From contig JADFYB010000010.1 of NCBI GenBank assembly GCA_015233245.1, forward strand, positions 1 to 41,003: 41,003 bases of DNA. Direction: 5' to 3'. Below are positions 3,321 through 40,166 of this stretch, piece by piece. The translations under genes and the position numbers were made by a program. The notes under the pieces were generated by a model. The model did no database searches, was not told where the DNA came from, and was given only the letters and a program-made list of their open reading frames with translations. Every line of letters starts with the position of its first letter. Within the stretch, counting starts at the first letter, position 1. Origin of the DNA: Nitrospirota bacterium. Lineage in GTDB: Bacteria; Nitrospirota; Thermodesulfovibrionia; Thermodesulfovibrionales; Magnetobacteriaceae.

Positions 3321-4172
3321 TTAACAGTGTACATCATCCTTAGCCTTGATATAATTTATAAATGCTGAACAGATAACTAAAAAGAATTTGGCATCTTCAA
3401 AGCGTATGGTTGACGATTCCATGAGGGCATGTCTGATACCGTTTTCGTCAGACGTATATCCATAAAGATTGCTTAGTGCGGACTTGAGTGCTGAGTGCAA
3501 CTCTATTTTTTTGTCTTCAAGTTTTTTGATCAACTGACCAAGTGTTCCTTTCTCATCGCCAACGGTAATTTTGACCAAACTCTCTACCGCAGATATTGCT
3601 TCCTTCATAGAATTGCGGTAGTCGGGATTTTCACGGTTAGATAACAATTCCAGTGATCTATGGAGATGTGTTTTCACTGAATCCTGAGCACTATCAATCG
3701 CACGTTCAATCGCCTCAATTTCTTGCGGTTCGGTAATCCGAGTGATCTTGCCACCGATGAATCGATAGGCGGAGACCTCCTTCTCTAATATATGGTTGCA
3801 GGTTACAAGAAACCACTCTTTATTGCCTACGTAGTTGTTTGCTATAAATTCAATAAAGTCATAAACCTCATACCATTGACACTCAAAGAAATATTTTCGT
3901 ATATAAGTGTGAACAACGCTCCAGTCGTTATCTAATGTATCTATAGGTTTATTGAAGTAGTGCAACCATAGGCGGATACACAACTGATTGAATGTTTTAT
4001 TAAGGGGGTTTGAAAGGCTTTGGTCTACATATCCGTTGTTAGAATATTGTACGTGTTTCCAGATATAAATATCCAACAAGCTCCACAGCCCATTTCTTAG
4101 TGGCTCATCCATCGACTCTATTTGAACAACGTCTCGGATTTTCGTATAATTATATCGTTCAGAAAATTTCAT
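3321..4172 (-). CDS. AbiJ_NTD4-domain-like protein with C-terminal helical domain (abortive infection-related)
   Basis: N-term FSERYNYTKIRDVVQIESMDEPLRNGLWSLL and C-term PDYRNSMKEAISAVESLVKI...ALSNLYGYTSDENGIRHALMES...AKFFLVICSAFINYI match my recollection of the AbiJ_NTD4 family layout. Confidence 0.7.
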   Translation of the reverse strand: MKFSERYNYTKIRDVVQIESMDEPLRNGLWSLLDIYIWKHVQYSNNGYVDQSLSNPLNKTFNQLCIRLWLHYFNKPIDTLDNDWSVVHTYIRKYFFECQWYEVYDFIEFIANNYVGNKEWFLVTCNHILEKEVSAYRFIGGKITRITEPQEIEAIERAIDSAQDSVKTHLHRSLELLSNRENPDYRNSMKEAISAVESLVKITVGDEKGTLGQLIKKLEDKKIELHSALKSALSNLYGYTSDENGIRHALMESSTIRFEDAKFFLVICSAFINYIKAKDDVHC

Positions 4173-4309: not shown

Positions 4310-4837
4310 CTATTCATGTGTAAAATAATTCTGAATGACTGCCATAGGCAGGAAAAGCCGGTATGAGTAATTAATCAATGGGATAAACTGGAAATGCTCA
4401 TAAAACGATCTGGCCTTATTGTCTTTGGCATCAACAATTACAGCCACTGAGCCTATCTGTTCCGTCAATTTAAGAGAACGCCGGAGAGCATCCACAAGTA
4501 AGAGTTCGCCATAGCCTCTGCTCTGATAATGGCGGTCAACCGCGAGTCTGCCAATTAGTGTTGCGGGCATTATGGGATAGTGCGGCAGCTTTCTAACAAC
4601 CGGTTCCGGCAACTCCACAACATCAACGTTGGTAGAGGAAAGCGTGTAGTATCCGGCAATTGTTGATAGCGTATCACCCAAAAGGACAAACGAGGCAGCA
4701 ACCTTTTTTTTGACGTCCTGCACGGCCAGTTGCCGGATATAGCGTGTAAGCCCATCTACGTCGCAATCAAAAGCCGCACGGTTGTGATGTTTGCTTAGCA
4801 GCTCTATGACCGGATTAGAATCGGACGCCGCCGGCAC
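4310..4837 (-). CDS. GNAT N-acetyltransferase, TacT-like toxin of a type II TA pair
   Basis: GRLAVDRHYQSRGYGELLLVDALRRSL acetyl-CoA binding motif, VIVDAKDNKARSFYEHFQF; directly downstream of a DUF1778 gene. Confidence 0.88.
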   Translation of the reverse strand: MPAASDSNPVIELLSKHHNRAAFDCDVDGLTRYIRQLAVQDVKKKVAASFVLLGDTLSTIAGYYTLSSTNVDVVELPEPVVRKLPHYPIMPATLIGRLAVDRHYQSRGYGELLLVDALRRSLKLTEQIGSVAVIVDAKDNKARSFYEHFQFIPLINYSYRLFLPMAVIQNYFTHE

Positions 4838-4839
4838 GG

Positions 4840-5136
4840 TCAGTCCATAGTTTTTTTATAGCGTATTACAGCTTTTTTTAACCGTCCGGGTGGTATTACA
4901 GGGTTTAAGAGCGCAGAGACAAAGATTTCCCGATCCTCTTTAGTAAGCTCCATGACCTCATGGTTATGAATGACTTTCGTTGCCTCAGTTTGCAGTGTGG
5001 ATACTACAAAATCGGTCAGTGTGATACCCTGTAGTTGAGCAGCCCGTTTGAACAAGCGTTTTTGCTCACTGCTAATTCTGGCCTCTAAACGTCCGCCTTT
5101 TGAGCCGGTTTTGTACACTTCTTCTGTTAATGGCAT
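4840..5136 (-). CDS. DUF1778-family (RHH) antitoxin
   Basis: RLEARISSEQKRLFKRAAQLQGITLTDFVVSTLQTEA; 98 aa; 2-nt gap to the GNAT toxin gene. Confidence 0.88.
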   Translation of the reverse strand: MPLTEEVYKTGSKGGRLEARISSEQKRLFKRAAQLQGITLTDFVVSTLQTEATKVIHNHEVMELTKEDREIFVSALLNPVIPPGRLKKAVIRYKKTMD

Positions 5137-7380: not shown

Positions 7381-8388
7381 TTGGGAAGTAGGAAGAAGAA
7401 AAAGAAAGACAGGAAAGAACATAGCAATAAACCTAAGAGCAATACAGAACAAGATGAAACAGAGCAAATCATTAGTGAGCTGAGCATGACAGAACAAAGC
7501 GAGACAACGCAAACTAAAACATATAGTTTCTGTAGAAATCTGATACTATGGTATAAATTTAAAATCCTCCGTTTCAACCGTGACAAAGAAATTGAGCAAC
7601 TATTTTATGACAAAAAGTTAAAAGATATAGTTAATGAAGTTAAAAACTCGGCTATTAACAAGAGTACTGATTGCTCTAAAAAAGACTATGTTGAATTAGT
7701 AAGTGTGATTGCACATACATCAAACGCATTCAAGGCAAGCAGATGGGCTTTTGTATCTGCTCTTGCAAGTGTGGTACTATCAATTGCAACTCTCTTCATA
7801 TTGTTTATTACAACGCGCCAACTATATCAGATAACCAACCAAACAAAAATACAAAGCGAACAAACAAAAATACAGAGCGAACAGCTTATCACTACCAATT
7901 TTCGTAAAGCTATTGAGAACCTCAAAGTTAATATAGTAGCACGTGAAAACACAGACAACAAGACAGTTACAGGTCGTTTTCAGTTAGATAATAAAGAACA
8001 CAATAAAGAACACTTCAGTGAGAAAATCAAATCTAAATTTAATGAAAATGTCATAGAAGTAGAATTTACAAATATTGAAAAACAATATATTGAATTTATA
8101 GATATAAGCATAGATTTTGTAGATAGAAAATGTGAAATTAAACCATGTGAAATTGTGCCATGTGAACACATTAATCGTTATTTTTTGAAACATGAAGACG
8201 CAAAAAAGATAACTAATAATGATAAGTATCGCATTAGTAAATCTAAAGACAATAATAGCATAGAAAATCGCATATCTACATATCTAAAAAATCGAGACAA
8301 TAGTGAAGCTACTCTGTCAGAAATCGCATTTGAAGTTCGAATACAAGCATATGAAGATAAATATATTGAAAGCGTGTTTAATAAATAA
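7381..8388 (+). CDS. Single-TM protein with Lys/Glu-rich cytoplasmic N-terminus; first gene of the locus
   Basis: 335-aa ORF with TTG start after GAGG; hydrophobic segment WAFVSALASVVLSIATLFILFI then tandem TKIQSEQ TKIQSEQ. Confidence 0.7.
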   Translation: MGSRKKKKKDRKEHSNKPKSNTEQDETEQIISELSMTEQSETTQTKTYSFCRNLILWYKFKILRFNRDKEIEQLFYDKKLKDIVNEVKNSAINKSTDCSKKDYVELVSVIAHTSNAFKASRWAFVSALASVVLSIATLFILFITTRQLYQITNQTKIQSEQTKIQSEQLITTNFRKAIENLKVNIVARENTDNKTVTGRFQLDNKEHNKEHFSEKIKSKFNENVIEVEFTNIEKQYIEFIDISIDFVDRKCEIKPCEIVPCEHINRYFLKHEDAKKITNNDKYRISKSKDNNSIENRISTYLKNRDNSEATLSEIAFEVRIQAYEDKYIESVFNK

Positions 8389-8420
8389 TATAAGAAACTA
8401 TTTATTAATGGTAATATTTA

Positions 8421-9764
8421 GTGGTGATAATGTTATATATTAGAAGATATATTCTTTACTTTTTGGTGATTGTTTCAATTATAAACACTAATTTTGCTTG
8501 TAAAAAGCAGACTACTGACAGCCATGCTATAAACTGTGATGGAATAAGCTCTGACACTAAGGTGTTTTTGAGTAAAATGAAAGATGTAGGGAAAATATAT
8601 TATGAGATTAAAAGACCAGATGACCATAAAGATTTGCATTCAGAAATAGCAACCATAATCGAATGTCAAGCAGGTGTAAGATATTTGCAGTTGGAACTTG
8701 ACGATACGGAGTTTGAAGAATTTAAGAAAAGGGACGATAAACCTATTGAAATAGGTTCTTTTGATTATGATAACAATTCTATTAATGTTTTGACTTATGA
8801 TATGTTTATAGGAATAAATCATTATGTCGAAAATAATCAAGGTATATATAAAAAAGATTTTATAAACAAAATAAACAAAATAAAAAGTGGTACTGAAGCA
8901 ATGTATTATGTGATGGAGAAGAATAAACTACACTTGTTTGTTATAGATAATAAAACTAAATCTGTTACGCCTCTTTTCCCTGATCCTACAATAAACTCTT
9001 TGAGTAAAGGGGAATACAATCAAACTATAGAAGTTGCTAATCAGTTAAGAAACAATCCTAACATTGTGTTTAAATTCAAAGTAAAATTTGCAAAAGGTAC
9101 GAAGGTAAACTTCTACTGTTTTGCTAACAATAAAAACTGTGAAGATCGCGATTTTGAGCCGAATGGAGCTCCAGGTAATGTGAAAACTTTAAAAACAAAG
9201 CCAATATCCTTTGATAATTTCACAAAAACATACAATGAATTATCATTTAGATCTTTCACTGAAAGTGAAGATAGTTTGCACTGTGTAAACTTTAATCCCA
9301 TTACAGCATTGAAAAACCATGAAATAGATGCAACAAAGCCACACGATTGTTCTCCTAATGACAAACTTGCAAGTTCCCCTGATAATGTAGTTCACTTTGA
9401 TGAATGCAAAGACAAATTAACACCTTCTTTTAAAAAAGATATTGACATTTTTATTAAACATAAAAATAACTTGCATGTCATAGGATACGCAAGTAACCAA
9501 AGATGTACAGACAGAGCCTCAAAAGATAAAGATATTAGTTGTTTTAACAAACAAATAGCAAAACAACGAGCCGAGGCAGTTAGAGATTACATAGAACAAG
9601 TTACACGCAAAAAAGTTGACTCATCTTTTATCTGTACATCTTTTGAGAATAAGACAGATGTTGAAATAATAAAATCAAAAGATATAACTGAGGAGGTCAG
9701 AAAACAAATGTGTCCCAATGGCAAATTGATGCTAACAGAAGAAATAAAAGAAACATGTAAATAG
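8421..9764 (+). CDS. Exported (possible lipoprotein) OmpA-C-like domain protein
   Basis: N-term hydrophobic signal ILYFLVIVSIINTNFAC; C-term VVHFDECKDKLTPSFKKDIDIFIKHKNNLHVIGYAS...IAKQRAEAVRDYIEQ resembles the OmpA peptidoglycan-binding core. Confidence 0.68.
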   Translation: MVIMLYIRRYILYFLVIVSIINTNFACKKQTTDSHAINCDGISSDTKVFLSKMKDVGKIYYEIKRPDDHKDLHSEIATIIECQAGVRYLQLELDDTEFEEFKKRDDKPIEIGSFDYDNNSINVLTYDMFIGINHYVENNQGIYKKDFINKINKIKSGTEAMYYVMEKNKLHLFVIDNKTKSVTPLFPDPTINSLSKGEYNQTIEVANQLRNNPNIVFKFKVKFAKGTKVNFYCFANNKNCEDRDFEPNGAPGNVKTLKTKPISFDNFTKTYNELSFRSFTESEDSLHCVNFNPITALKNHEIDATKPHDCSPNDKLASSPDNVVHFDECKDKLTPSFKKDIDIFIKHKNNLHVIGYASNQRCTDRASKDKDISCFNKQIAKQRAEAVRDYIEQVTRKKVDSSFICTSFENKTDVEIIKSKDITEEVRKQMCPNGKLMLTEEIKETCK

Positions 9765-9802
9765 TTTAAACGCTAAAAAGAGAATAGAACACGGAGGGCA
9801 TT

Positions 9803-11200
9803 TTGAGGGTTTTGCGTACTTTTAATGGTTTGAAAAACAATAACAGAAACAGATGTTTATTAATAGCAACTTGCTTATTTTTTTTATTATTTACTCAGGC
9901 TACATATTCTTATGGTGAGTTAGCCGCACCACCACCGGAGGAGATCAAGTTAAACATTTTAGAAAGTACAGATAATAACACTGTCATAAATATTTTTTTT
10001 GATGGTAGTTTGTCTATGAAGGGTTATGTTGTCTCGGAGCGCTTTACCTCATATAAGACTCTCGTAAATAATTTGGAATCCATAATAACAGCAAGGTGGC
10101 CTAAGAGCATATTAAATATTTATAAGTTTGGCTCAAAGGTATTTAAGTTAAAAGAGAGAAATGATGTGCTGATGGCTGTAAATTCAGCGTTCTATGAAGA
10201 GAAAGGAATATCTTTTAAGACATATATCGATAAGGTGTTTGACGAAAACGGCGTATGTGACAATAACACCATGTCCGTTGTAATAACAGACTTATTTCAG
10301 TCCGATGGTGATATTAACAGAGTATTAAAGAAAATAAATGAAAAATGTATGGAAAAATCAGTTGCAGTCGGGGTTATAGGGATTAAAAGCGAATTCAAAG
10401 GCGTTGTCACAGACATAGGTTTATATGAAAAGGGGCTTCCATATAGCTCAAAGAGAGACTCTAAAGACACATACAGACCTTTTTATTTACTCATATTCGG
10501 ACCCTATAACAATGTGTTGGATTTTTTTGATTCATTGTCTGAAAAATTACCGGCGGTCAGCACGGATATGTATGAGTTTAAAGATAAAATGACAATATTT
10601 TATTCACACATGGTAAATCCCCTTATTTCATTTGAGGGCTCAAAATTTGAGAGTTTAAACAAAACCGCAAGAGAAACATCCGGTTTAATTAATAATAAGA
10701 CATATCAGAAAGAAATTGTTAAACAATACAGAGTATTAAACGAAGCAGGGGCAGGAGTGCGGCTGTCATTAAAAACCCACCCTCTAAAATATATCCCTGC
10801 TTTTTGCGAATCCAAAATCAAGGCTACATATAAAATAGAAAAATTTTTCAACGGCCAATTTATTACAAAAGATGATTTCTTTAATATAAGCTCAGGCACT
10901 GAGGACAACAATACTATATTTATAGAAGTTAAAATAAAAAAGAAAATTTGGGATGGCGGGTTGTTTCGGATATCGGTTACTCTGAATGCTGAAAAAGAAG
11001 CTTTAAATAATAATGAAAATTGGTGGAATGATTGGAATCTGAAATTGGATGACCTGGATAAGTGGAGGAAATTTCAGTTTTTGTTTCCAGGTTATAAGAC
11101 AGTAAATCTAAACACATTTATGAGTTCTCTTTCAGATATGACCATACAAAAGAGCGACTTAAAGCTCGGTCAGTTGTATTTTTATCTTATGATTGATTAG
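9803..11200 (+). CDS. Exported von Willebrand factor A-like domain protein
   Basis: TTG start after GGAGGG; signal CLLIATCLFFLLFTQATYS; MIDAS-like FFDGSLSMKGY (DxSxS) and SVVITDLFQSDGD. Confidence 0.75.
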   Translation: MRVLRTFNGLKNNNRNRCLLIATCLFFLLFTQATYSYGELAAPPPEEIKLNILESTDNNTVINIFFDGSLSMKGYVVSERFTSYKTLVNNLESIITARWPKSILNIYKFGSKVFKLKERNDVLMAVNSAFYEEKGISFKTYIDKVFDENGVCDNNTMSVVITDLFQSDGDINRVLKKINEKCMEKSVAVGVIGIKSEFKGVVTDIGLYEKGLPYSSKRDSKDTYRPFYLLIFGPYNNVLDFFDSLSEKLPAVSTDMYEFKDKMTIFYSHMVNPLISFEGSKFESLNKTARETSGLINNKTYQKEIVKQYRVLNEAGAGVRLSLKTHPLKYIPAFCESKIKATYKIEKFFNGQFITKDDFFNISSGTEDNNTIFIEVKIKKKIWDGGLFRISVTLNAEKEALNNNENWWNDWNLKLDDLDKWRKFQFLFPGYKTVNLNTFMSSLSDMTIQKSDLKLGQLYFYLMID

Positions 11201-11238
11201 AGAGATTAACAGTACTGAAATATGAGGAGGGGCTAAAG

Positions 11239-11703
11239 ATGGTTAAACATTTTTTGAGCATTGTGCTTATCGTGGGTGTAGGGGTTTGTTTTTATATCGC
11301 AACGGCATACGAGGTGGATTTCATTAGAAAGTTTGTGATGCTGTCATCGGATGTTACTACAGACGATGAGTTCACAGAGGTGTTTACCCGATGGGGTAAG
11401 TATATAGTTGCGAGCTCGGTTGCAACCGCACTTATCTGGTATATAGTCGGGTGGTTCTATAAAATTAATGACTGGCGAATTATTTCAAAAATGAAAACCG
11501 TATGGTATGCGTTATTCCTTCTGCCAATTTTAGTTGTTGGGGTAGCATTGTATAAGGCACCAGTTATAGAGAAAGGGACGGCATGGGTGGTAATATTTTA
11601 TATAACAAACAGCTTGATCCTGTTTTATTTTTCAACGTTTCTACTTTCGCCCCCATCGTTTAAATACATTCCTATTGGCGCTTGCAAGGCAAGACGCTGG
11701 TAA
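11239..11703 (+). CDS. Small multi-TM membrane protein
   Basis: 154 aa with about four hydrophobic segments (FLSIVLIVGVGVCFYIA; YIVASSVATALIWYIVGWFY; WYALFLLPILVVGVALY; AWVVIFYITNSLILFYFSTFLL). Confidence 0.7.
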   Translation: MVKHFLSIVLIVGVGVCFYIATAYEVDFIRKFVMLSSDVTTDDEFTEVFTRWGKYIVASSVATALIWYIVGWFYKINDWRIISKMKTVWYALFLLPILVVGVALYKAPVIEKGTAWVVIFYITNSLILFYFSTFLLSPPSFKYIPIGACKARRW

Positions 11704-11735
11704 AAGCAACCAATAAAACGGCTCAGGAGGAATAG

Positions 11736-13259
11736 ATGAATTTCTACGCTATTGGAATAGGCGGCACAGGGGCAAAGTGTATGGAGGCTCTTATACACTC
11801 TTGTGCAGCCGGATTAATGCCTAAGGGCAGACTTAGCTGTCTGTACATAGATCCGGACAGATCAAACGGCAGTGTAGGCCGTTCTATGGTTTCACTCAAT
11901 AAGTATATAGAGTGTAAAAAACTGAGTTTGGGAAATATTGAATTATTTAATAATAAGCTTGAAATTTTAAAACCCGGTCTTTGGTCGCCAATTGCAACGC
12001 ATATTCGTCCGACTCTGTCTAATTTTTTTAGATATGACACAATGAAAAGCGAGCGTCCCGAGGCAGCACATCTCATGGATGTTCTCTACAGCAATAAGGA
12101 AAAAGAAACTACCCTTGAGCAGGGCTTCAGGGGGTATCCATCAATCGGGGCAGGGATAATGTCTATGGCCATAAATGATAAATCCGAACCGTGGAGAACT
12201 TTTGCTCAAAAAATAGTACAGGATTTAAAGGCCGGAGATGGGGCGAGAGTTTTTCTTTTTGGCTCGATTTTTGGAGGTACCGGCGCATCGGGGCTTCCTA
12301 CGATAGCCCGAAAAATAAAAAACACCGTCATGGAAGAGCTAGGCAGAGCAAATGCTCAATCTATGGTAAGTGAAAAGATACAAGTTGGCGCTGCTATGGT
12401 GCTGCCTTATTTTTCTTTTGTATTTTTAGAAAAAGAAGACGAACTTAAAGCCAAGTCTGAGAACTTTTTGCTAAATACGCAGGTAGCACTGAAATACTAC
12501 CATCAAATGGATAGTTTGAAAATATACGACACCGTCTATTTGTTTGGCGATGAAACGCAAAGTCCGGTAAGCAAGGCAAGCCTTGGAGGTAAGACTCAGG
12601 AAAACGAACCTCATTTTATTGAACTTTATGCCGCTCTGTCAGCTATTGATTTCTTTAACGGCCAGGACCACATTGGATATCTCATGGTGGCAAGAGCAAA
12701 TAATAAGGTCATTGACTGGCAGGATTTACCGGACAAAAGAGGTACATCTATTATTAAAAATAAAATAGGACAAATGACGAGATTTGCATTTGCTTATTTA
12801 AGTACATACTTTCCCATGATTGAGGATATAAAAGAAAAAGGCAACCCGTGCCAGGCACCCTGGTTCATAGATCTTTTTGAGCGGGAAAACATCAAGCTGA
12901 GTAAAGAGGAGGTTTATCAGAGTCTTTTGGATATTAAAGACTATTGTGAAACATACCTCAAATGGATTTCCAGTATACATGAGTCGGTAAAAGACGAAAG
13001 CATAAACTTAATTAAATATGATGCTTTCACACACATGCAAGATGAGGAAGAGGTAAAAAGGGGGGATTTGCTCCGGGATTTTAAGTTCACCGAATTCAAC
13101 AACCTGGTATATCCATTTGCACACCGCTCACGAAACGGGTTGGGGCAGCTATGGGATAAAATGAGTGATATCTCTGCAAGCGATTTTAAGGGAGAACAGG
13201 TTGACGGTATAGGTAAATTCATAAATGCATTATATAAAAAATGTTCTGTTAAGCAATGA
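11736..13259 (+). CDS. Tubulin/FtsZ-like GTPase (Tubulin_2-like)
   Basis: N-term AIGIGGTGAKCMEALIHSCAAG nucleotide-binding start and RVFLFGSIFGGTGASGLPTIARKIKN, the GGTGSG-like tubulin signature; ~507 aa. Confidence 0.82.
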   Translation: MNFYAIGIGGTGAKCMEALIHSCAAGLMPKGRLSCLYIDPDRSNGSVGRSMVSLNKYIECKKLSLGNIELFNNKLEILKPGLWSPIATHIRPTLSNFFRYDTMKSERPEAAHLMDVLYSNKEKETTLEQGFRGYPSIGAGIMSMAINDKSEPWRTFAQKIVQDLKAGDGARVFLFGSIFGGTGASGLPTIARKIKNTVMEELGRANAQSMVSEKIQVGAAMVLPYFSFVFLEKEDELKAKSENFLLNTQVALKYYHQMDSLKIYDTVYLFGDETQSPVSKASLGGKTQENEPHFIELYAALSAIDFFNGQDHIGYLMVARANNKVIDWQDLPDKRGTSIIKNKIGQMTRFAFAYLSTYFPMIEDIKEKGNPCQAPWFIDLFERENIKLSKEEVYQSLLDIKDYCETYLKWISSIHESVKDESINLIKYDAFTHMQDEEEVKRGDLLRDFKFTEFNNLVYPFAHRSRNGLGQLWDKMSDISASDFKGEQVDGIGKFINALYKKCSVKQ

Positions 13260-13292
13260 ACATATTTAGATATTATAGGGAGGGAAACTGAG

Positions 13293-16200
13293 ATGCCATC
13301 ATATCCACCGTTAACGCCGAAATTAAAAATAAATGAAACCAACTCCGTAGCCAATTTTGAGTCTCCTGGTAAATGGTCAAACCGCTATAAAGATGCACTC
13401 TTTGCATTAAGTGAAAGTCTCGACCTTGAAGAGGGATTGGGAAAAAATACGGAACTAACAGGAATACCTGATATGTGGGCAAGGCCTAGATTATTTGAAA
13501 TGGCGCTTTTTGACGCGAAGCATCCGTTAAACGCTAAAACCATAGGAGAGTGGCGGGGGCTATTAGCTATGCTCGCTCTCAAGGAGTTTCTGGACATTCC
13601 TCTTGAGGCTGTTGAGCTAAATCTGGACAATAACCCTGAACAGTTTGACTTTATAGCTGCTGCAAAGGCTTTAAAACCGACTAATCAGCTTTTTGAAGAC
13701 ATCGATTGGACTACTGTCTATATCATATTGTTTAACAAGTTTCCTGTTGGAATGACCTCCCCTACCACGTTAGTTTGTACTGCTACGAATTATTTTAACA
13801 GAATAAACAGAGTCAAGTGGTATAACGGTTCCATTCTTACCGACCCTGTTAAAGAAGTTCGCAGAGAGAGGGGACAGTTATCGGCATGGCTTACAGAACT
13901 TTCAAATAAATTATCAGAAAAGATGAGTGAAAGTGGAAAAAAAGCACCGGATGAATATCATAATATAGTTGCTCTCTTGAAAGGTGAGAGAGGGTTTATA
14001 ACTGAGCTTGGTCAGGCGGATAAAACCTGTGATTACTCAAACAATGTCTATGGTTTTAAGAGGGTTTTTTTTAGTTTCATCGATAAACCACTGTCTTTAG
14101 GCGGAGATAAGGAGTCTCATATTGAAATAGTTACTGAGAAAGAGGTTGATACACGATTACTTCTTGTTGAGCACGACATATGCTCCAATTGGAATATTGA
14201 TGAAAGAGATTTATTAGTTTATAACCACATCCCTTTTTCTCAGATAAGGCCTGAGGAGATATTTCCGGAAACTCATAAGTTAGGAAGTATAACACTACCA
14301 ACTAACGTAGTGGTGAAGACTGCTGATAGTTTTTTTACGAAAAAGTTATTTTTGATAGAACACCCAAATGCTTTTCCGGGCACAGCATCTGTAAAAGGCT
14401 CTACAGGACTGACGTTTCAGGGAAACGATGTTACGTCTGTGTTACCACTCAGTGGTGAACTTCTCGATTATTATACATCTGAGACTCTGTCAAGGCGGAT
14501 TTCAATTTATAAAAACAATGATGATGACATAACTGTAACTTTTACGGTACCGTTAAAAGGCCCTGAGAAAGAATCTGTTAAACCTTATAACAAATCTGCG
14601 ACAAACGGCGCTAAAAACATAAAAACAAAATCAAAAGACTATACAATATCTAAAACGTACAAGAAAAGCGACGGTGACGTGCAAGTGCTTTATGCCCCTC
14701 CTTCTATAGCAATTTGGCCGCATTTTAAAGTAACCGGGGATAACAACTGGAGCCTTTACTTTACATATTTTTCAACACGAGAGGAGAATACTTTTTATGG
14801 AGAACCTCTGCCCAAAGCCGGTAAGAGTGCAAAAACAACTAAAAGGCAGAACACTTCACATACAACAACAGAGATAACAGAAATGAGCATGTATCCGGAG
14901 GCAATAGCCTGTAAGTTTGATAACAACGGTGAAAAAGAATATGAAGATATAGGCATATTGCTGCTTGAAACACCACCTGAGGTTGAAATAGCCGCAAACA
15001 ACTCATGTGAGATTGGAGTTGACCTGGGCACAACCGCTACAAACGTGTACTACAGAGCAAACGACAGGTCACAACCCATGCCAATGACATTTACGGATAA
15101 TCTGTTTTTACGGGTAACAGAAACACCTCAGTCGCCGGAGTACTTACGAGGCTTTATTAACGATGTTTTGATTGATTTGCCTTTTCTGTCAATCTATGAT
15201 GTGCTGGATATAACGGCAAAGGATCCGTTAAACCCATTTAAAGATGGACATATTTTCTACATATATGCTTTTGCAGATTTTTTTGAGGATGCTGTTAAAA
15301 GAAAGACTATAGAGACAGATCTTAAGTGGGGCAGACTAAAGGAAAATATATATACTGCCGCATTTCTAAAACAGATTTATCTGCAGAGTGCTGCTCAGGT
15401 AGTATCTGAGGGAATAAATCAGATAAAATGGAAATTTTCATATCCTGTTAATTTTAGATTTTACAAAGCGTTTAAAGCAACATGGCAAGACATAATAGAG
15501 TATTACAACGACAAACTCAATCTTAAACTCACGCAAAGTGAAATGCTTAGCGGAGAGACGGAAAGTGTTGTGGCAGCCCGCTATTTTGCAAGAGAGAATA
15601 CTTTTAGAGCCTCCTTTAATACCGGAGCGATTTGTATAGATATTGGCGGAGGAACCTCCGATTTTTCCATTTGGTATGAAAATAACTTAATACACCAGAC
15701 GTCGGTAAAATTTGCAGGCAGAAATATTTTTATAGACCTTTTCAGTGCAAATGACTTTGCTATTCTTAAAAGTCTTGAGGATAACGATATTTATGAAAAG
15801 TATAAAGGGGCACGGGATCAAAAGTACTACTACGCAATGCTTGAGAGTTTGGTTATAGGACGTTGTAATAGCAAGGGCGGTAATGGTGAAAATTGGTTTA
15901 AGCGGCTGGCTGCGCGCAGTGATGAGCCGGATTTCAAAAAGTTTAAACAACTTTTAGCAGTTGGTTTAGCAGGGCTTTTCTACTACAATGGTTTGCTAAT
16001 GAAATATGTAAAAGAGGGCGGACTTACAAAGGACAGAGCAGAAATCACTAAAATTTATCTCGGCGGACGCGGCGTTAATGCCATTCACTGGCTTGGTGAC
16101 GGTATCTATAATGAAAAAACAGAGATAAACGATTTATTTAAACATGCTGCGGCCACTGCTTTTTCAGATATGGAGGAGGAAAGAGAACGAATTGTCAAGT

Positions 16201-16634
16201 CTCTTGAAATAAAACTTTCTTTGAAACTTAAAGCGGAAGCAGCTATAGGACTCGTATCTGAAATTGATACAAAATTATCAGTTGGTGAGCATATTAGTGA
16301 GCCACAAGTGCTTGCTTGTGAGAAATGTAAAGGTGCAGATGAACACAACTGGAACACAATCTTGAAAGAAGATGATTTTATCGCGGGAATAAAGGTCGAC
16401 AAAGAACTTGAGCAGCTTAAAAGTTTTATTAACGCCTTCAATAGTCACTGCGGTAAATACAAAATTGAACAAATTACAGGAAGCGATATTATGTACAACA
16501 GCATTTACACGAAAGTGGATCAGAGCGTAACCAATATGAGGAATGGAGAAAAAAACACACTAATCCTTGAACCGATCTTTATTACGGAATTAAGAGAACT
16601 CCTTTACCACATGAAAACTGCATGGGGAAGGTAA
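13293..16634 (+). CDS. Large protein with C-terminal actin/Hsp70-like (ASKHA) ATPase domain
   Basis: 1113 aa; phosphate-1 CEIGVDLGTTATNVYYR, phosphate-2 AICIDIGGGTSDFSIWYENN, possible adenosine motif IYLGGRGVNAIHWLG; ~570-aa N-terminal region of unknown fold. Confidence 0.82.
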   Translation: MPSYPPLTPKLKINETNSVANFESPGKWSNRYKDALFALSESLDLEEGLGKNTELTGIPDMWARPRLFEMALFDAKHPLNAKTIGEWRGLLAMLALKEFLDIPLEAVELNLDNNPEQFDFIAAAKALKPTNQLFEDIDWTTVYIILFNKFPVGMTSPTTLVCTATNYFNRINRVKWYNGSILTDPVKEVRRERGQLSAWLTELSNKLSEKMSESGKKAPDEYHNIVALLKGERGFITELGQADKTCDYSNNVYGFKRVFFSFIDKPLSLGGDKESHIEIVTEKEVDTRLLLVEHDICSNWNIDERDLLVYNHIPFSQIRPEEIFPETHKLGSITLPTNVVVKTADSFFTKKLFLIEHPNAFPGTASVKGSTGLTFQGNDVTSVLPLSGELLDYYTSETLSRRISIYKNNDDDITVTFTVPLKGPEKESVKPYNKSATNGAKNIKTKSKDYTISKTYKKSDGDVQVLYAPPSIAIWPHFKVTGDNNWSLYFTYFSTREENTFYGEPLPKAGKSAKTTKRQNTSHTTTEITEMSMYPEAIACKFDNNGEKEYEDIGILLLETPPEVEIAANNSCEIGVDLGTTATNVYYRANDRSQPMPMTFTDNLFLRVTETPQSPEYLRGFINDVLIDLPFLSIYDVLDITAKDPLNPFKDGHIFYIYAFADFFEDAVKRKTIETDLKWGRLKENIYTAAFLKQIYLQSAAQVVSEGINQIKWKFSYPVNFRFYKAFKATWQDIIEYYNDKLNLKLTQSEMLSGETESVVAARYFARENTFRASFNTGAICIDIGGGTSDFSIWYENNLIHQTSVKFAGRNIFIDLFSANDFAILKSLEDNDIYEKYKGARDQKYYYAMLESLVIGRCNSKGGNGENWFKRLAARSDEPDFKKFKQLLAVGLAGLFYYNGLLMKYVKEGGLTKDRAEITKIYLGGRGVNAIHWLGDGIYNEKTEINDLFKHAAATAFSDMEEERERIVKSLEIKLSLKLKAEAAIGLVSEIDTKLSVGEHISEPQVLACEKCKGADEHNWNTILKEDDFIAGIKVDKELEQLKSFINAFNSHCGKYKIEQITGSDIMYNSIYTKVDQSVTNMRNGEKNTLILEPIFITELRELLYHMKTAWGR

Positions 16635-16718
16635 CTGAATATGCCCGGATATATGATTTAAAGTCTTTCAATGAAACACTGATGACTTTGATTAACTAAC
16701 TTTAGACAAGGTGGAATT

Positions 16719-18377
16719 ATGCTTATGAAAAGTTTCTTATCTTTTGTCGTGATTTTTATGTTTTTTTTGATTAGTTTTAATGTATATGCTGGAAGTGGTC
16801 AAAATGGAAAAAATGCACATAAACAAGCAAAAGCTGGGGAAAATGCTGTTGAAAAAAATGAAATTACTCAAGAAGAGAAGAAGATAAGCGATGAATTGAA
16901 TAGGTGCAAAGAGGCAGTTGATGTGATAGGAAAGCTTATTGCAGAGTACAAAAAAAAACCTAAAAATTATACGCTCGATAATTTAAAAAACTGGAAAGAT
17001 GAAATAGAAAGTATAGAAAAGGAAATTAATACGATTGATGCGAGCATATTGAAAAAATATAAAAAACTAAAAGCAGATTATGATCAGTCACAGGTGTTAG
17101 TAAAAGATATTTTAAGAAAAATTAATAAAGAAGTTAATAGCCTTATACTTTCTCAGGTTCAAACATGTATAAATAAAATAGAACCTCTGATTAAAAAAAT
17201 ATCTGATAACATTACAAAAATTGAAGAAATGAAAGAAGAAGGGATTTCTAAGAAGAGAGATGAAATATTAAATTATCAGCAAACACTAGACGCACTATTA
17301 AAAGAACAAAAGGAATTGGAGGATACGTTTACAAATGAGTTTGTGAAAGTAAATCCCCTGGATACAGGTGCTTTTAAAGCATTAAAAAAGACTATTGAAG
17401 CTTTAAATACACGTATAAACAAATTGTTAGAAGAAATAAAAAATCCTTCACCAAGTCCCTCAACAAAACCAGAAGAAAACCTTAATGTGAAACAAGACAA
17501 TAAACATGGGAAAAAAGAAACACCATCACCTGAACCATCACCTGATGATGAAAATACATCTCAACTTAAAATCCGTTATAAAACAGATGATCGTTGGGTA
17601 ACTTTGTTTTTTGGATTTATAGGTGGTATTGCAGCAATTTTGGTATTATTCTTAATACTACCAATTTTCTCTGGCAAACAGCAGAGAAGAGGAAATGACA
17701 CACCTGATACTCAAGGTATGCAGAAAAATATTGAGACGCAATTACAAGGAGGTCAAACATTACTTTATATTCAACAACGGCTTACTCAAAATGAATATGA
17801 TATTGATGCGTTAAAAGCAAGTATAAATACAATATTTAGAACAGCTAATGATGTTACAAAAGAAAGGCAAATCCGAAAAGGCGAACAGAGTCAGGATCGG
17901 GAAAACGATTACTCTACAACTAAAGATAGATGGCCTGCAACAGAATATAAAACAGAACCTAAAGGACTTGCTGATAGAGTAAACGACTTCATTCAACAAT
18001 ACAACGAGGATGTAAACACAGGACAGATTCAATTAACCACGAAATTTGACATTACTAAAATTGGTATTCAAAATATGCAAGAACTTATAAATAGTCAAAC
18101 TGCTAAACCAATTTTTGAAGTTATGTTAAGCGGTAATTATTGGTGTATAAAGGAGCAGGACGTCTATTTAGCGGTTCCACGTCCTCTGATGCCGCTTAGG
18201 GCTGACGATTATCATTCTAATGCGTTAAATCAGGTCTTTATGTTTACCGGTTACAATCCTAACTTAATTTACAGAAAAATAAATGTAAAAAAACCGGCTG
18301 TTTTCAAATTAAGCGGTACTAATGCTCAAATATATAAGAAAGGCGAACTGATTCTCGGACGTGGTGAACCGGCATGA
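16719..18377 (+). CDS. Exported coiled-coil protein with Pro-rich linker, one TM helix and a cytoplasmic C-terminal domain
   Basis: Signal MKSFLSFVVIFMFFLISFNVYA; long Lys/Glu heptad-rich region; NPSPSPSTKPEE..TPSPEPSPDDE; TM WVTLFFGFIGGIAAILVLFLILPIF; soluble C-terminus. Confidence 0.72.
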   Translation: MLMKSFLSFVVIFMFFLISFNVYAGSGQNGKNAHKQAKAGENAVEKNEITQEEKKISDELNRCKEAVDVIGKLIAEYKKKPKNYTLDNLKNWKDEIESIEKEINTIDASILKKYKKLKADYDQSQVLVKDILRKINKEVNSLILSQVQTCINKIEPLIKKISDNITKIEEMKEEGISKKRDEILNYQQTLDALLKEQKELEDTFTNEFVKVNPLDTGAFKALKKTIEALNTRINKLLEEIKNPSPSPSTKPEENLNVKQDNKHGKKETPSPEPSPDDENTSQLKIRYKTDDRWVTLFFGFIGGIAAILVLFLILPIFSGKQQRRGNDTPDTQGMQKNIETQLQGGQTLLYIQQRLTQNEYDIDALKASINTIFRTANDVTKERQIRKGEQSQDRENDYSTTKDRWPATEYKTEPKGLADRVNDFIQQYNEDVNTGQIQLTTKFDITKIGIQNMQELINSQTAKPIFEVMLSGNYWCIKEQDVYLAVPRPLMPLRADDYHSNALNQVFMFTGYNPNLIYRKINVKKPAVFKLSGTNAQIYKKGELILGRGEPA

Positions 18378-18458
18378 TTACATTATTAATTATCACGTTA
18401 AATTTGTCTTAAAAACATAGCGGATTACATATAGTATGAGCTTAATGGAGGGATTGAA

Positions 18459-20591
18459 GTGACAGAGGATGAAATGTTTAAAGTGGGCGTTGATGTGACG
18501 TTCAAAATAATTATATATATTTTAAAGGCGTCTCATATGTTTTCAGATAATTTTCTGACTTTTATTACACCTGAAAACACAATAGCCCTTAATATCATAT
18601 ATATTCTTACTTCAATTTTTGCTGTCTGGTTTCTTTTTTTGGTATTTAAGTCCGTTATTTTAGTTAGAACATCCCGTGTTTTTTCAAAACTCAGTAATAT
18701 TAACTTTCTTTTAATTGCACTTGAAAACTATGAGGCTGATAAGAAGCGTCAGGAACATGTGCAAGTGAATCAATTTAAAAATGAAGCCTTAAATGAGTAT
18801 ATTAAAAAAATGAGCCTTCCTAAAAAACACATAGCAGTCTCCCATCTGTCTTCAATATTTAGCGCCGGCCTTAAAGATACATACTTTGATATAAATAGCC
18901 AGCTTACTTATGTAATACATAAAATATTCGGTTCTAATTCAATTTTCAAGGCTGTTCTTGGCACTTTTATAATTATTGGACTGCTTGGCACACTGTTTGG
19001 ACTGGCCGATTCCCTATCTAAAATGAATTTCGATTTCGATGGCCATAGTTCCATTGAATCGAAAAACTCCGATAAAGCCCAAAATATGAAACATGAACTG
19101 CAGGATTTTCTCAGTAAGCTTAAAAGTGCTTTTGCGCCAAGCATCTGGGGCGTTGCTCTCACTATCGTGGCCATGTTTTTCTATCTAATTTACATAAGGA
19201 TTATTTGCAACCCCTTACGCTCAAAGATAGAATTTATTACTTTAAATGTTTTGATACCGGAGCTCTACCCTACTCCCTCCCAAAAGTTTACTCAGGCCCT
19301 TCAGGTTAGTTACAAAGAACTTAGCGGTCATTTTGATTCCGCACGTCAGGTTGCTGATATGGCAAACAACATGAAAGGCGATGTTAGAACTATGACCACT
19401 AATCTGGGAGTTGCTAATACTGCCTTAAAGTCACTTGTACCCGCTGTAGATAAAATAAACAAAGCATCTGACAAAATCAATGATCAATTTGCAAATAATC
19501 TAATTAACTTTTCAAAAACTTTTGGTGACAGCGTAAATGCGCTTACGTCTTTTCAGGGAGAACTCAAAGTCTTGTACTCTCAGTTGCTTAGTGAATCATC
19601 TACCTTTCAGACAAACGTAAAAGATACCCTTAAAATTCAGCACACTGAAATCAGCGAAATTCTCAACACCCTGAGAACGTATGAAAAGTCCTATCTTGAC
19701 GACAGAGCTAAGATTGAAGAGGGCATGAAAGAATACATCACACTTGCTGTAAACATAAACGAGAAAATAGATAATTACAATGCCAACTACACCTCTTCAT
19801 CAATGGAAAAAATAAGTTCCGGGCTTAACAATGTAAAGGATTCAGTACACAGTAAGCTCAATGAACTAGTTACCAGATTCAACACATTTGAAGTGCCGAT
19901 GCAACAAGCTGCTACAAAAATGAGCGGCTCCTTTGAGAACTTTTTTAAGCAAATGAACCTGCTGTTTGATGAAATGCGCAAGGAATATTCCAAAGAAATT
20001 CAGGCCAACGCCGCTCAAACATTGGAGTCAAACGAGTTAAAAATGAAAGTGGCAGCCCTTTTTGAAAAGCTCTCAACCTCCTGGGATTCTCAGATTAGTA
20101 GAATCGAGGGGCTCTATACTCACATGACAACTCTAAGCAAAGAAATCAGCTCACTTGGCCTAAACATCACGTCACTCTCCTCCGGAGCACAGAGTTTTGC
20201 CTCATACATGGGTGAAATGGGAGAAACCATGCAAATATTTAAGAAAGCTCCTGAAATATTTAATGATTTCTACAAAGATTTGGTTCCTGTCGCTGATATC
20301 GTTTCCGAATTTACGACAATGGTAAAGGAGATAAAAAAGAGTGTAAAAAGTTTTGACGAAATCTTACAAACAATAAATAGTACTGAATTTACTCCGCCAA
20401 GCTACAATGAATTAACGGATAACGTTAAAGGCCTCTCTGCCTCCATAAATGGCTACACTAACACTATGTACAGTTTCATAGACGAATTTAAGAATTTAAC
20501 CATGAATTTGAGAAATATTAGTATCTTCACTCCTCAACAAAATGATACGTCCATTGCTGAGTCAATTTTAATGAGAAAGCGGGTTTTTTAG
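18459..20591 (+). CDS. MotA/TolQ/ExbB (ZorA-like) proton-channel stator protein with long coiled-coil tail
   Basis: GTG start; TM pair AVLGTFIIIGLLGTLFGLADSL and FAPSIWGVALTIVAMFFYLIYIRII typical of MotA/ExbB/ZorA TM3-4, followed by ~430-aa predicted helical tail. Confidence 0.85.
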   Translation: MTEDEMFKVGVDVTFKIIIYILKASHMFSDNFLTFITPENTIALNIIYILTSIFAVWFLFLVFKSVILVRTSRVFSKLSNINFLLIALENYEADKKRQEHVQVNQFKNEALNEYIKKMSLPKKHIAVSHLSSIFSAGLKDTYFDINSQLTYVIHKIFGSNSIFKAVLGTFIIIGLLGTLFGLADSLSKMNFDFDGHSSIESKNSDKAQNMKHELQDFLSKLKSAFAPSIWGVALTIVAMFFYLIYIRIICNPLRSKIEFITLNVLIPELYPTPSQKFTQALQVSYKELSGHFDSARQVADMANNMKGDVRTMTTNLGVANTALKSLVPAVDKINKASDKINDQFANNLINFSKTFGDSVNALTSFQGELKVLYSQLLSESSTFQTNVKDTLKIQHTEISEILNTLRTYEKSYLDDRAKIEEGMKEYITLAVNINEKIDNYNANYTSSSMEKISSGLNNVKDSVHSKLNELVTRFNTFEVPMQQAATKMSGSFENFFKQMNLLFDEMRKEYSKEIQANAAQTLESNELKMKVAALFEKLSTSWDSQISRIEGLYTHMTTLSKEISSLGLNITSLSSGAQSFASYMGEMGETMQIFKKAPEIFNDFYKDLVPVADIVSEFTTMVKEIKKSVKSFDEILQTINSTEFTPPSYNELTDNVKGLSASINGYTNTMYSFIDEFKNLTMNLRNISIFTPQQNDTSIAESILMRKRVF

Positions 20592-20594
20592 TTA

Positions 20595-21311
20595 ATGGAA
20601 TATAATTCGCTTAATTCATACAATGAGGATGAGGATTTCAATTTTTGGCCATCCTTTGCCGATCTGATGCTCTCCATTGTGCTTATACTTGTTTTAATTA
20701 TGTTTACCTCCATAGTTTATATCTCTCAGGGAAAGCTAAACTTAAGCCAGGTTACTAAAAAACAAATGGAGGTTATACACGATATTGCAGCTGTAAGCGG
20801 CGTGGATGTGCAATGTAAGAGACAACTCGGAGATGAATATAACGAATGTGTAATTGAAGAGCAAGGGATAGCTGTTAAAAACGAATTGACACTCCAGCGA
20901 TTTACATTTTCAGACAATATTCTCTTTTATTCAGACAGTTATGAGATTAACGAAAAAGGCAAACTCGTTTTATCCAAGGTAGGGAATGAATTTAAAAAAA
21001 GAATTAAATATATAGGTGAAATTCAGATTCAGGGCCATGCCGATACTGATAATACAACTATACACGGTACAAACATGAAATTGGCTGCGCTTCGCTCTAT
21101 TGCTGTGTTTGAATTTTTGAGAGACAACGTAGGAATAGACCCTGTCAGACAATTTATGTCTGCCACATCCTTTGGTGAGTACATGCCTGCTTGCCGTAAA
21201 CCCGGAGATTCTTTCGATCTTAAACGGTTAAAGGAATGTAATAAAAATAACGAAGATAAAAGAAAAAATAGGCGTATAGAAATCCTTTTGTTTTACAAAA
21301 ATATTTCATAA
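20595..21311 (+). CDS. MotB/ZorB-like protein with OmpA peptidoglycan-binding domain
   Basis: Single N-term TM with conserved Asp: NFWPSFADLMLSIVLILVLIMFTSIVY; OmpA core GEIQIQGHADTDNT...KLAALRSIAVFEFLRD...KRKNRRIEILL. Confidence 0.92.
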   Translation: MEYNSLNSYNEDEDFNFWPSFADLMLSIVLILVLIMFTSIVYISQGKLNLSQVTKKQMEVIHDIAAVSGVDVQCKRQLGDEYNECVIEEQGIAVKNELTLQRFTFSDNILFYSDSYEINEKGKLVLSKVGNEFKKRIKYIGEIQIQGHADTDNTTIHGTNMKLAALRSIAVFEFLRDNVGIDPVRQFMSATSFGEYMPACRKPGDSFDLKRLKECNKNNEDKRKNRRIEILLFYKNIS

Positions 21312-38211: not shown

Positions 38212-39099
38212 TCAGTGAAGTCTATCTATTTGTTTGGAGATTAAATCATAAAGCCTTTGGAAATCATGAGGCTGGTTTTCTATAGGCTTATTTACCAGGT
38301 CGTTTGTTATGGCTTTCATTTTATCCTTACCTTGAAGAGGCTTCTTGCCAGTACCCTTTACCTTAAAACACTTGTCTATGACTAATGGCAAGATAGGTTT
38401 TCCCTTTATCAGCTCAAGCCATTTCCCCGTATTAAATTCTAATTTATTGTCACTACCTGTAAGAAGATTGTAATATTTGTCATATGTATCTTTTAGGTGT
38501 TGTAGTGATGTTTCTAAACCAATCTTATTTTTGAATTTATTAAAATCATTTAATTCAGTTAGTTTTTTTATTGCATCTTCATTACTTCTAAATTCTTCTT
38601 TTTTATCAAATAGATTAATCCAATTCTGTTTAAAATTTTCTCTTATTTCCAAAATAACCAAATTTGCGGTGTCTATGAAAATTCTTTCATTGCAAAGATT
38701 TTGTATACAATTTTCCAGTTCGTCAAAAGATACGGTTAAATATTCCGACTGTTTAATATAATCAGGGATTATAAAGTAGTTTTCGATTTCACGTCTTGGC
38801 CATACAAGTAAGTTTGATTCGTCAGGGTCAGGGAAATTACTCCAGCGTTGTTCAATAAAAGCGTCATCATAATGATCTCTGTCAATTAAGAAGTAGTACT
38901 TGGGATGATATTTATACATGGCCTCTGCCGCACTTCTTATATGATAAGAAGGCCCTAATGGTTTTACTCCAATTTTTCCGCCTAATAACTTAGAAATCAC
39001 CTGTGGATCAAGAGAATTTTCGTCGCCCTCTACAAACAGAGTATGTTCTGCTCCTTGTTTGAACTCCTCTGAGCTTACATTTGTTTCTACTTTTGGCAT
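38212..39099 (-). CDS. DUF4435/TOPRIM-like protein (possible PARIS AriB-like effector)
   Basis: HTLFVEGDENSLD, YYFLIDRDHYDD (DxD) and LLVWPRREIENYFIIPDYI; directly downstream of an AAA ATPase. Confidence 0.7.
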   Translation of the reverse strand: MPKVETNVSSEEFKQGAEHTLFVEGDENSLDPQVISKLLGGKIGVKPLGPSYHIRSAAEAMYKYHPKYYFLIDRDHYDDAFIEQRWSNFPDPDESNLLVWPRREIENYFIIPDYIKQSEYLTVSFDELENCIQNLCNERIFIDTANLVILEIRENFKQNWINLFDKKEEFRSNEDAIKKLTELNDFNKFKNKIGLETSLQHLKDTYDKYYNLLTGSDNKLEFNTGKWLELIKGKPILPLVIDKCFKVKGTGKKPLQGKDKMKAITNDLVNKPIENQPHDFQRLYDLISKQIDRLH

Positions 39100-39113
39100 T
39101 TAATCATGTAGGG

Positions 39114-40166
39114 TTATCGCAGTATTATCCGTCTGTCCTTATCTACTGAGTCAGCAATATCCTCAGAATGAGTCGCTATAATATATTGGTTATTTGGAGC
39201 CATGATATTTAGCTGTCTTATAAAATTTTTGTGCCACTCGTGATTAAGATGTAGTTCAGGTTCGTCTATTAAAACAACAGCCGATGAATTCTGTGTATAA
39301 TGCCAAATTAAAAACAAAGTGGATATGATTTCCTTTTGCCCTGAACTCAAACCGTCAAAAGGAAAAGACTTACTGCCGTTTACTGGAGTTACTCTGAAGT
39401 CAAAGGTACTATCGGCATCAGCAGTAAGTTTTTCAATTGTACCTTCAGCATAATTTGTGAGTAGGTTGTTAAGTTTGTTTAATACATCTGATGAATCCTT
39501 AGGGTCAAGGTTTTCAATTAGACCGGCTTTTCCCGTCATAGCTTTTAATACCTCGACCTTAAAAATGCTGTTTAACGGTTCTTTGTAAAAATGTCCTGAC
39601 CTAATAACATTTCGTTCCTCTTTACGGTCTAACATCATTCCTAACGGAGTTCTTCCCTCACGGACTTTTCTATAACTATGAAAATACAAAAAGCTGGAAA
39701 ACAATAAAGGTTCAGAGCCGTATCCCGCTAAAATTTGAAGAAAAGTTTCAAACATTATATAATCTTCATATAAATCGGTAGTATCTAAGTTACGAGGGTA
39801 TAAAGTTATTTCGCCCTTTTTGGTTAATGTCAATGATACCGATCGCTTTATTTTGTTTATTTCTACAACAGCCTCTATTACAGCCTCATCCGAACCTGAA
39901 CGTATCCATAAATCAAAAAAATTAATCGGTAAATCTATATTTCCGCGGATTCCGAGGTGTGTTCCGCTGGTAATGGCTAAAACTAAAAGAGTGCAGGCCT
40001 CCAGTATAGAGGTCTTGCCAAGGCCGTTAACGCTTCCCATAACAAAAACATCTGGTTCATTCTTAATTTTTGGTTGAGGGAATTCTATTTCAATAGAATC
40101 AATTGCTTTAAAATTAGTAATCTTTAAGCGCCTGATTTTTAACTTATTTATATCTTTTCTTGTCAT
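39114..40166 (-). CDS. AAA/ABC-type ATPase (OLD/AAA_15-like; possible PARIS AriA-like)
   Basis: GSVNGLGKTSILEACTLLVLAI Walker A, GLSSGQKEIISTLFLIW signature, AVVLIDEPELHLNHEWHKNF Walker B, YIIATHSEDIADSV. Confidence 0.87.
   Translation of the reverse strand: MTRKDINKLKIRRLKITNFKAIDSIEIEFPQPKIKNEPDVFVMGSVNGLGKTSILEACTLLVLAITSGTHLGIRGNIDLPINFFDLWIRSGSDEAVIEAVVEINKIKRSVSLTLTKKGEITLYPRNLDTTDLYEDYIMFETFLQILAGYGSEPLLFSSFLYFHSYRKVREGRTPLGMMLDRKEERNVIRSGHFYKEPLNSIFKVEVLKAMTGKAGLIENLDPKDSSDVLNKLNNLLTNYAEGTIEKLTADADSTFDFRVTPVNGSKSFPFDGLSSGQKEIISTLFLIWHYTQNSSAVVLIDEPELHLNHEWHKNFIRQLNIMAPNNQYIIATHSEDIADSVDKDRRIILR

Follow-up and report, generated by a model that had tools for sequence, protein, structure and literature searches.

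FtsZ and FtsA form the standard bacterial tubulin-actin pair, and outside cell division few bacterial systems are known to combine proteins of these two folds. The canonical T4 loop of FtsZ and tubulin is GGGTG(S/T)G, and the canonical T7 motif is NxDxx(D/E). The 2010 paper that described the FtsZl1 (Tubulin_2) family listed VWA, OmpA, GTPase and kinase proteins as its partners and guessed that it remodels membranes (PMC2875224); an actin-fold partner, MotA and Hsp70 are not mentioned in the main text of that paper. In Synechocystis PCC 6803, sll0443-sll0449 are transcribed together as a single unit, for which a CRP site is predicted (PMC2633013). Domains of the Tubulin_2, FtsA and DivIC types occur in Sll0445, Sll0446 and Sll0447, respectively (PMC9880817), and sll0447 is a TM-type gene. 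Mutants of each of these three genes show impaired phototaxis and altered PSII fluorescence, and their products associate with the pilus-assembly proteins Slr2015 and Slr2018 (PMC9880817). Part of this association may be indirect, since it was detected by co-fractionation and affinity pull-down and photosystem proteins are among the partners (PMC9880817). Sll0445 and Sll0446 are also deregulated in a comFB mutant (PMC12313861). Thus the Tubulin_2/FtsZl1 family was already known, as was a tubulin-actin neighbourhood in one cyanobacterium (noted in 2021). A core cassette shared across phyla, or a Nitrospirota form of it with MotAB, was not described in the literature that we searched.

We analysed a 41,003-nucleotide stretch of Nitrospirota DNA (the window), for which a preliminary description had proposed a divergent tubulin/FtsZ-like protein, here called TUB. 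Its open reading frame (11736-13259, + strand) is unbroken, encodes 507 residues from an ATG, and has a good Shine-Dalgarno sequence (AGGAGG) a few base pairs upstream. Between TUB and its closest relative (49% identity), differences at the three codon positions amount to 38, 28 and 67%, as expected when a protein is under selection. The frame is therefore real, and it contains both motifs reported for it, GIGGTGAK (residues 7-14) and GSIFGGTGASGLP (residues 176-188). No transmembrane (TM) segments were found in TUB.

TUB matched the Pfam profile Tubulin_2 (PF13809) over residues 6-330 with E 2.4e-7 and 30.8 bits, above the gathering cut-off of 27 bits, which indicates that its motif match exceeds chance. 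The match to Tubulin (PF00091) was weak (E 0.012). All 11 members of the first TUB alignment matched Tubulin_2. An AlphaFold2 model built from seven sequences was of middling confidence (pTM 0.71, mean pLDDT 60.6), with poor modelling of the T4 loop, of some of the S6-H7 region and of the final 80 residues. The top solved structure found with this model by Foldseek was FtsZ (E 2.5e-4), and in a VIA comparison all 50 of the 50 best rows were FtsZ, CetZ or tubulin, headed by FtsZ 1rlu (Z 13.6, rmsd 4.5, 201 aligned residues). A better match to some other Rossmann NTPase family was looked for by structure, and none appeared.

Sequence comparison with solved structures gave fainter signals. A search with TUB found none similar, and the 11-sequence query returned CetZ 3zid alone (E 0.16). 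Full-length profile-profile comparison of TUB with FtsZ was weak (E 0.08, 26-28 columns, confined to the T4 region), while the global mode gave no meaningful alignment and did not locate T7. This weakness, together with the middling model, is what could be said for TUB being a non-tubulin Rossmann NTPase that acquired its GGTG motif by chance. Given a Tubulin_2 score over the cut-off and a structural list made up exclusively of tubulin and FtsZ proteins, we find that scarcely credible. On the evidence of the Tubulin_2 score, Foldseek and the VIA list, the initial identification was right: by profile and model, TUB is a true but unusual tubulin/FtsZ relative and a member of Tubulin_2 (FtsZl1).

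Profile-profile comparison of TUB with five long Tubulin_2 proteins aligned the T1 region alone, so it is the Pfam profile that places the short group within Tubulin_2. Long members of about 1100 residues (L028 3641-6967, L030 6577-9879 and L031 8862-12173) start with V-I-V-G-I-G-G-(V/A)-G-K-S, and their genes lie in a different conserved neighbourhood in the same bacterial family. Long and short types occur on one contig of genome G237. Identity with FtsZl2, which has all motifs including T7, lacks conserved neighbours and is found in Proteobacteria, was rejected by comparison with that description: T7 was not found in TUB, its neighbours are strongly conserved, and its hosts are Nitrospirota, Cyanobacteria and Prevotella.

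The relatives set comprised 31 loci from 30 genomes or records: two Nitrospirota MAGs (the first being the 49% relative), cyanobacteria, cyanobacterial plasmids, a Prevotella replicon and a MAG of one further phylum. The P0001 search of genome contigs gave no match; a three-sequence alignment then found six loci. No relatives of TUB were matched in phages. Across the 31 relatives, the TUB residues G9, G10, G12, S177, F179, G180, G181, T182, G183, A184 and G186 are invariant. The T1 loop is GG(T/S)GA in 30 and GGTGS in one, and the T4 loop is FGGTGA(S/A)G-x-P, with F179, GGTGA and G186 invariant. The divergent signature noted at the outset, GGTGA(S/A)G in place of GGGTG(S/T)G, is thus no private oddity of this protein. 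As the T4 variant is invariant among these relatives, the departure is a fixed property of the TUB subfamily.

No T7 motif (NxDxx(D/E)) was found in residues 1-420 of TUB or of the seven other relatives examined. Q288, N290, H293 and E296 (QxNxxHxxE, residues 288-296) are invariant in the 31 relatives, and the T7-equivalent loop may have diverged. Since TUB has no recognisable T7-type catalytic acids, filament-linked GTP hydrolysis is only a possibility. Judged from its loops, TUB probably binds GTP.

TUB is encoded in an operon of nine genes on the + strand, separated by short gaps, from 7381 to 21311. The probable first gene (7381-8388) encodes a single-TM protein (TM 125-143), lies 32 bp from the next gene and is specific to the window, having no relatives in other TUB loci. 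It is followed by a probable lipoprotein (8421-9764) with a signal-like N-terminus (segment 3-21) and an OmpA domain (PF00691 E 1.8e-4, just under the cut-off). The third gene (9803-11200) encodes a secreted VWA-like protein with a signal-like N-terminus and the MIDAS motif DGSLS...TDL; this assignment was by MIDAS-type motif alone, Pfam giving no VWA match. Its motifs D-x-S/T-x-S-M and TD are conserved in 25 sequences, and in most relatives the homologue is a lipoprotein. TM4 (11239-11703), directly upstream of TUB, is a small membrane protein of 154 residues with four hydrophobic segments. Downstream of TUB and of the gene for its partner ACT, the fifth gene of the cassette (16719-18377) encodes a signal- or TM-anchored coiled-coil protein (hydrophobic segments 6-24 and 296-314), whose conserved C-terminal domain resembles third-position genes of other loci. 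The last two genes encode a MotA/TolQ/ExbB-type channel subunit with a long coiled-coil tail (18459-20591; PF01618 E 6.4e-5, NCBIfam ZorA_1 8.9e-7) and a MotB/ZorB-like protein with an OmpA peptidoglycan-binding domain (20595-21311; PF00691 E 6.2e-10, PADLOC ZorB1 2.7e-19). This ZorAB-like pair is an add-on in the window; G237 has its MotA part only. The normal FtsZ of the host cell is encoded on another contig of the same genome.

ACT (13293-16634, + strand) has 1113 residues. Profiles matched FtsA/MreB around phosphate-2 and Hsp70 around phosphate-1 in its C-terminal part (about residues 570-1000), and its model, although of low overall confidence (pTM 0.44), gave VIA Z scores of 18.0 to MreB and MamK and 17.8 to FtsA. 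D577-x-G-T and D783-x-G-G-G-T-x-D (with D790) are conserved in 29 ACT sequences, and GG924-925 is also conserved, so that the phosphate-1, phosphate-2 and adenosine motifs appear in the actin/Hsp70 (ASKHA) order with actin topology. Model and motifs agree that this part of ACT, a predicted ATPase domain, has an actin fold. The N-terminal region of some 560 residues has no Pfam match, and ACT has no TM segments. The preliminary description had placed TUB outside any cell-division context. A family search indeed found no fts or mur gene nearby, but that description had missed the FtsA/MreB-type actin fold encoded directly downstream: TUB is not isolated from cytoskeletal genes, and its constant partner is one of them.

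In 30 of the 31 loci the gene immediately before TUB is TM4. ACT is encoded at 29 of the loci, on the strand of TUB, and in 27 the gaps are below 640 bp. VWA is present in 25 loci and elsewhere in the genome for five more; the remaining locus is a second TUB copy in a genome that already has the full set, so every TUB-holding genome has VWA. TUB, ACT, TM4 and VWA are thus a core cassette found in Nitrospirota, Cyanobacteria, a Prevotella and one further phylum. Variants were also seen. A lone second tubulin gene without partners (L099, G479:C38) shares its genome with a full cassette (L096). At L088 (G441), TM4 is split into two ORFs and ACT shortened to 947 residues, perhaps a decaying cassette. 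In the MAG of the further phylum (L026 12223-17196), the cassette is followed by genes for a 908-residue protein that looks Hsp70-like by eye, two proteins that likewise look TerD-like by eye, and an OmpA-tailed TM protein.

TUB and ACT are inherited together. Searched independently, the two queries returned one and the same set of six plasmid-collection records and the same three of about 390 Nitrospirota genomes, where full-length ACT scored >1000 bits and the runner-up 33 bits. TUB and ACT distances correlated with r 0.98 over 406 pairs; shared history alone can produce such a correlation, so it supports co-inheritance and not contact. The presence of several copies on cyanobacterial plasmids, and of tubulin- and actin-fold proteins in one operon, would fit a TubZ- or ParM-like system for segregating plasmids or other DNA. 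Many copies are on multi-megabase contigs, though, the Gloeothece plasmid carries its own ParA/ParB, and the proteins that regularly accompany the pair are membrane proteins or secreted, all of which makes segregation most improbable.

The reading we favour, at a little better than even confidence, is that TUB and ACT are an envelope-attached pair of cytoskeletal NTPases acting on surface machinery and not on division. With no TM segments and intact nucleotide loops, both are probably cytosolic NTPases. TUB, tubulin-fold and probably GTP-binding, would belong to a compact Tubulin_2/FtsZl1 subfamily (about 500 residues, no long coiled coil) and form one half of the pair, with ACT, probably ATP-binding, as its fixed partner. 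TM4 and the TM-anchored fifth protein would keep the pair at the inner membrane. The VWA protein, of the metal-dependent adhesion type, would complete the assembly from outside; with TM4 and the fifth protein in the membrane and VWA beyond it, the cassette probably makes a trans-envelope complex. In the window's Nitrospirota genome this complex would also be linked to a MotAB/ZorAB-type proton channel and to OmpA-type wall anchors. Its job would be to control or place envelope machinery, most likely surface appendages. The folds, the cassette and its joint inheritance come from observation; nucleotide binding, attachment to the membrane, assembly of a complex in this organism and the role are inferred. 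A bolder form of this proposal, which we offer tentatively and with considerable doubt, is a mobile envelope machine shared across phyla: tubulin-fold and actin-fold NTPases would act together and be bridged through the membrane to VWA, and the Nitrospirota version would be coupled to a proton-driven motor of ZorAB-like type.

Surface appendages are proposed because the Synechocystis operon has the same layout and its mutants are impaired in phototaxis, which is based on type IV pili; these are the only relatives with a tested function. The type IV pilus gene PilM was found in 8 of the 9 cassette holders searched. In the window's own genome the top PilM match was a 99-position piece with two stops (G000:C273:2508-2804), either a decaying pilus gene or a broken assembly, and the Prevotella record contained none. 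A pilus role is thus doubtful in the window's genome, where PilM occurs only as a damaged piece, and may not be general.

The two ZorAB-like genes would also fit a different function, defence against phage or stress, in which the tubulin-actin pair would sense or trap infection at the envelope and the proton channel would be the effector. Besides the ZorB1-like (2.7e-19) and ZorA-like genes, this would account for plasmid carriage and for a patchy distribution (3 of 395 Nitrospirota genomes and 21 of 292 from cyanobacteria), and sll0443-0445, with sll0448, are up 4-6 fold in a lexA mutant of Synechocystis (PMC4759255). The window also contains defence genes of PARIS-like AriA/AriB and AbiJ (PDC-S32) type, but they do not adjoin the operon. 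Furthermore, MotAB is present in two loci only, PADLOC gave no match for TUB, ACT, TM4 or VWA, ZorC, ZorD and ZorE are missing, and the Synechocystis phenotype is one of motility. We consider defence unlikely. Zorya itself was rejected, as PADLOC found no ZorC, ZorD or ZorE match among the nine operon proteins.

On the - strand, 38212-40166 encodes an AAA ATPase and a 294-residue protein that resemble the AriA/AriB pair of the PARIS anti-phage system, and 3321-4172 an AbiJ_NTD4 protein with a strong match (E 1.6e-109) to PDC-S32, a candidate defence family of PADLOC. Also on that strand, at 4310-5136, is a TacA-type antitoxin with a GNAT acetyltransferase, likely a TacAT toxin-antitoxin pair.

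Membrane remodelling or vesicle formation, as suggested for FtsZl1 operons in 2010, would be served by the same types of partner that we see here, namely VWA, OmpA and membrane proteins (PMC2875224). That proposal was based on gene context alone and was doubted by its reviewer (PMC2875224). No result of the present analysis bears directly on membrane shape, and we judge this function to have a rather small chance of being correct. A relation to SrfABC was also considered, SrfB being a large protein; Pfam gave no SrfB match, and we found no link in the literature.

Our data suggest that TUB, which in several bacterial phyla is inherited jointly with ACT and with membrane and surface proteins, belongs to a little-studied cell-envelope machine and not to one for division. 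If the cassette is one complex, it would be a second, independent tubulin-actin partnership, spread over several phyla as well as plasmids, and it would let proteins of the cytosol communicate with VWA in the periplasm. The 31-locus conservation table points to genes and residues worth testing. As Synechocystis is genetically tractable and single mutants exist, the function of Tubulin_2/FtsZl1 is directly testable.

How does this locus compare with known systems? With FtsZ, CetZ and tubulin, TUB shares the N-terminal fold and the glycine loops; it differs in its GGTGA(S/A)G loop, the lack of a canonical T7 and its C-terminal part. ACT, unlike MreB, MamK and FtsA, has a 560-residue N-terminal region with no Pfam match, and it co-occurs with a tubulin. 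The Zorya proteins ZorA and ZorB have in common with the last two operon genes a MotA/MotB-type pair, a long coiled-coil tail and an OmpA domain, but in the window the pair stands at the end of a tubulin/actin operon without ZorC/D/E. The FtsZl1/Tubulin_2 systems share with TUB the domain match, a VWA gene in the operon (by motif), which most FtsZl1 operons have, an OmpA gene, which several of them have, and presence beside a normal FtsZ. TUB has 507 residues, compared to 981-1108 for five long members of related genomes, and its model lacks the extended coiled-coil or helical region after the domain that is typical of the majority, though not all, of that family. The window operon also has no P-loop GTPase or kinase, and has an actin-fold partner instead. 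With sll0443-sll0449 the window shares the layout VWA-TM4-TUB-ACT-fifth gene, in which two genes precede the Tubulin_2 gene and an actin-type gene and a further one come after it, a likeness of gene order and published domains, and one cyanobacterial locus of our set (L098) has seven genes in the sll0443-0449-type order. Unlike this cyanobacterial operon, the window version has a single fifth gene and, in addition, MotA/MotB-like and OmpA genes.
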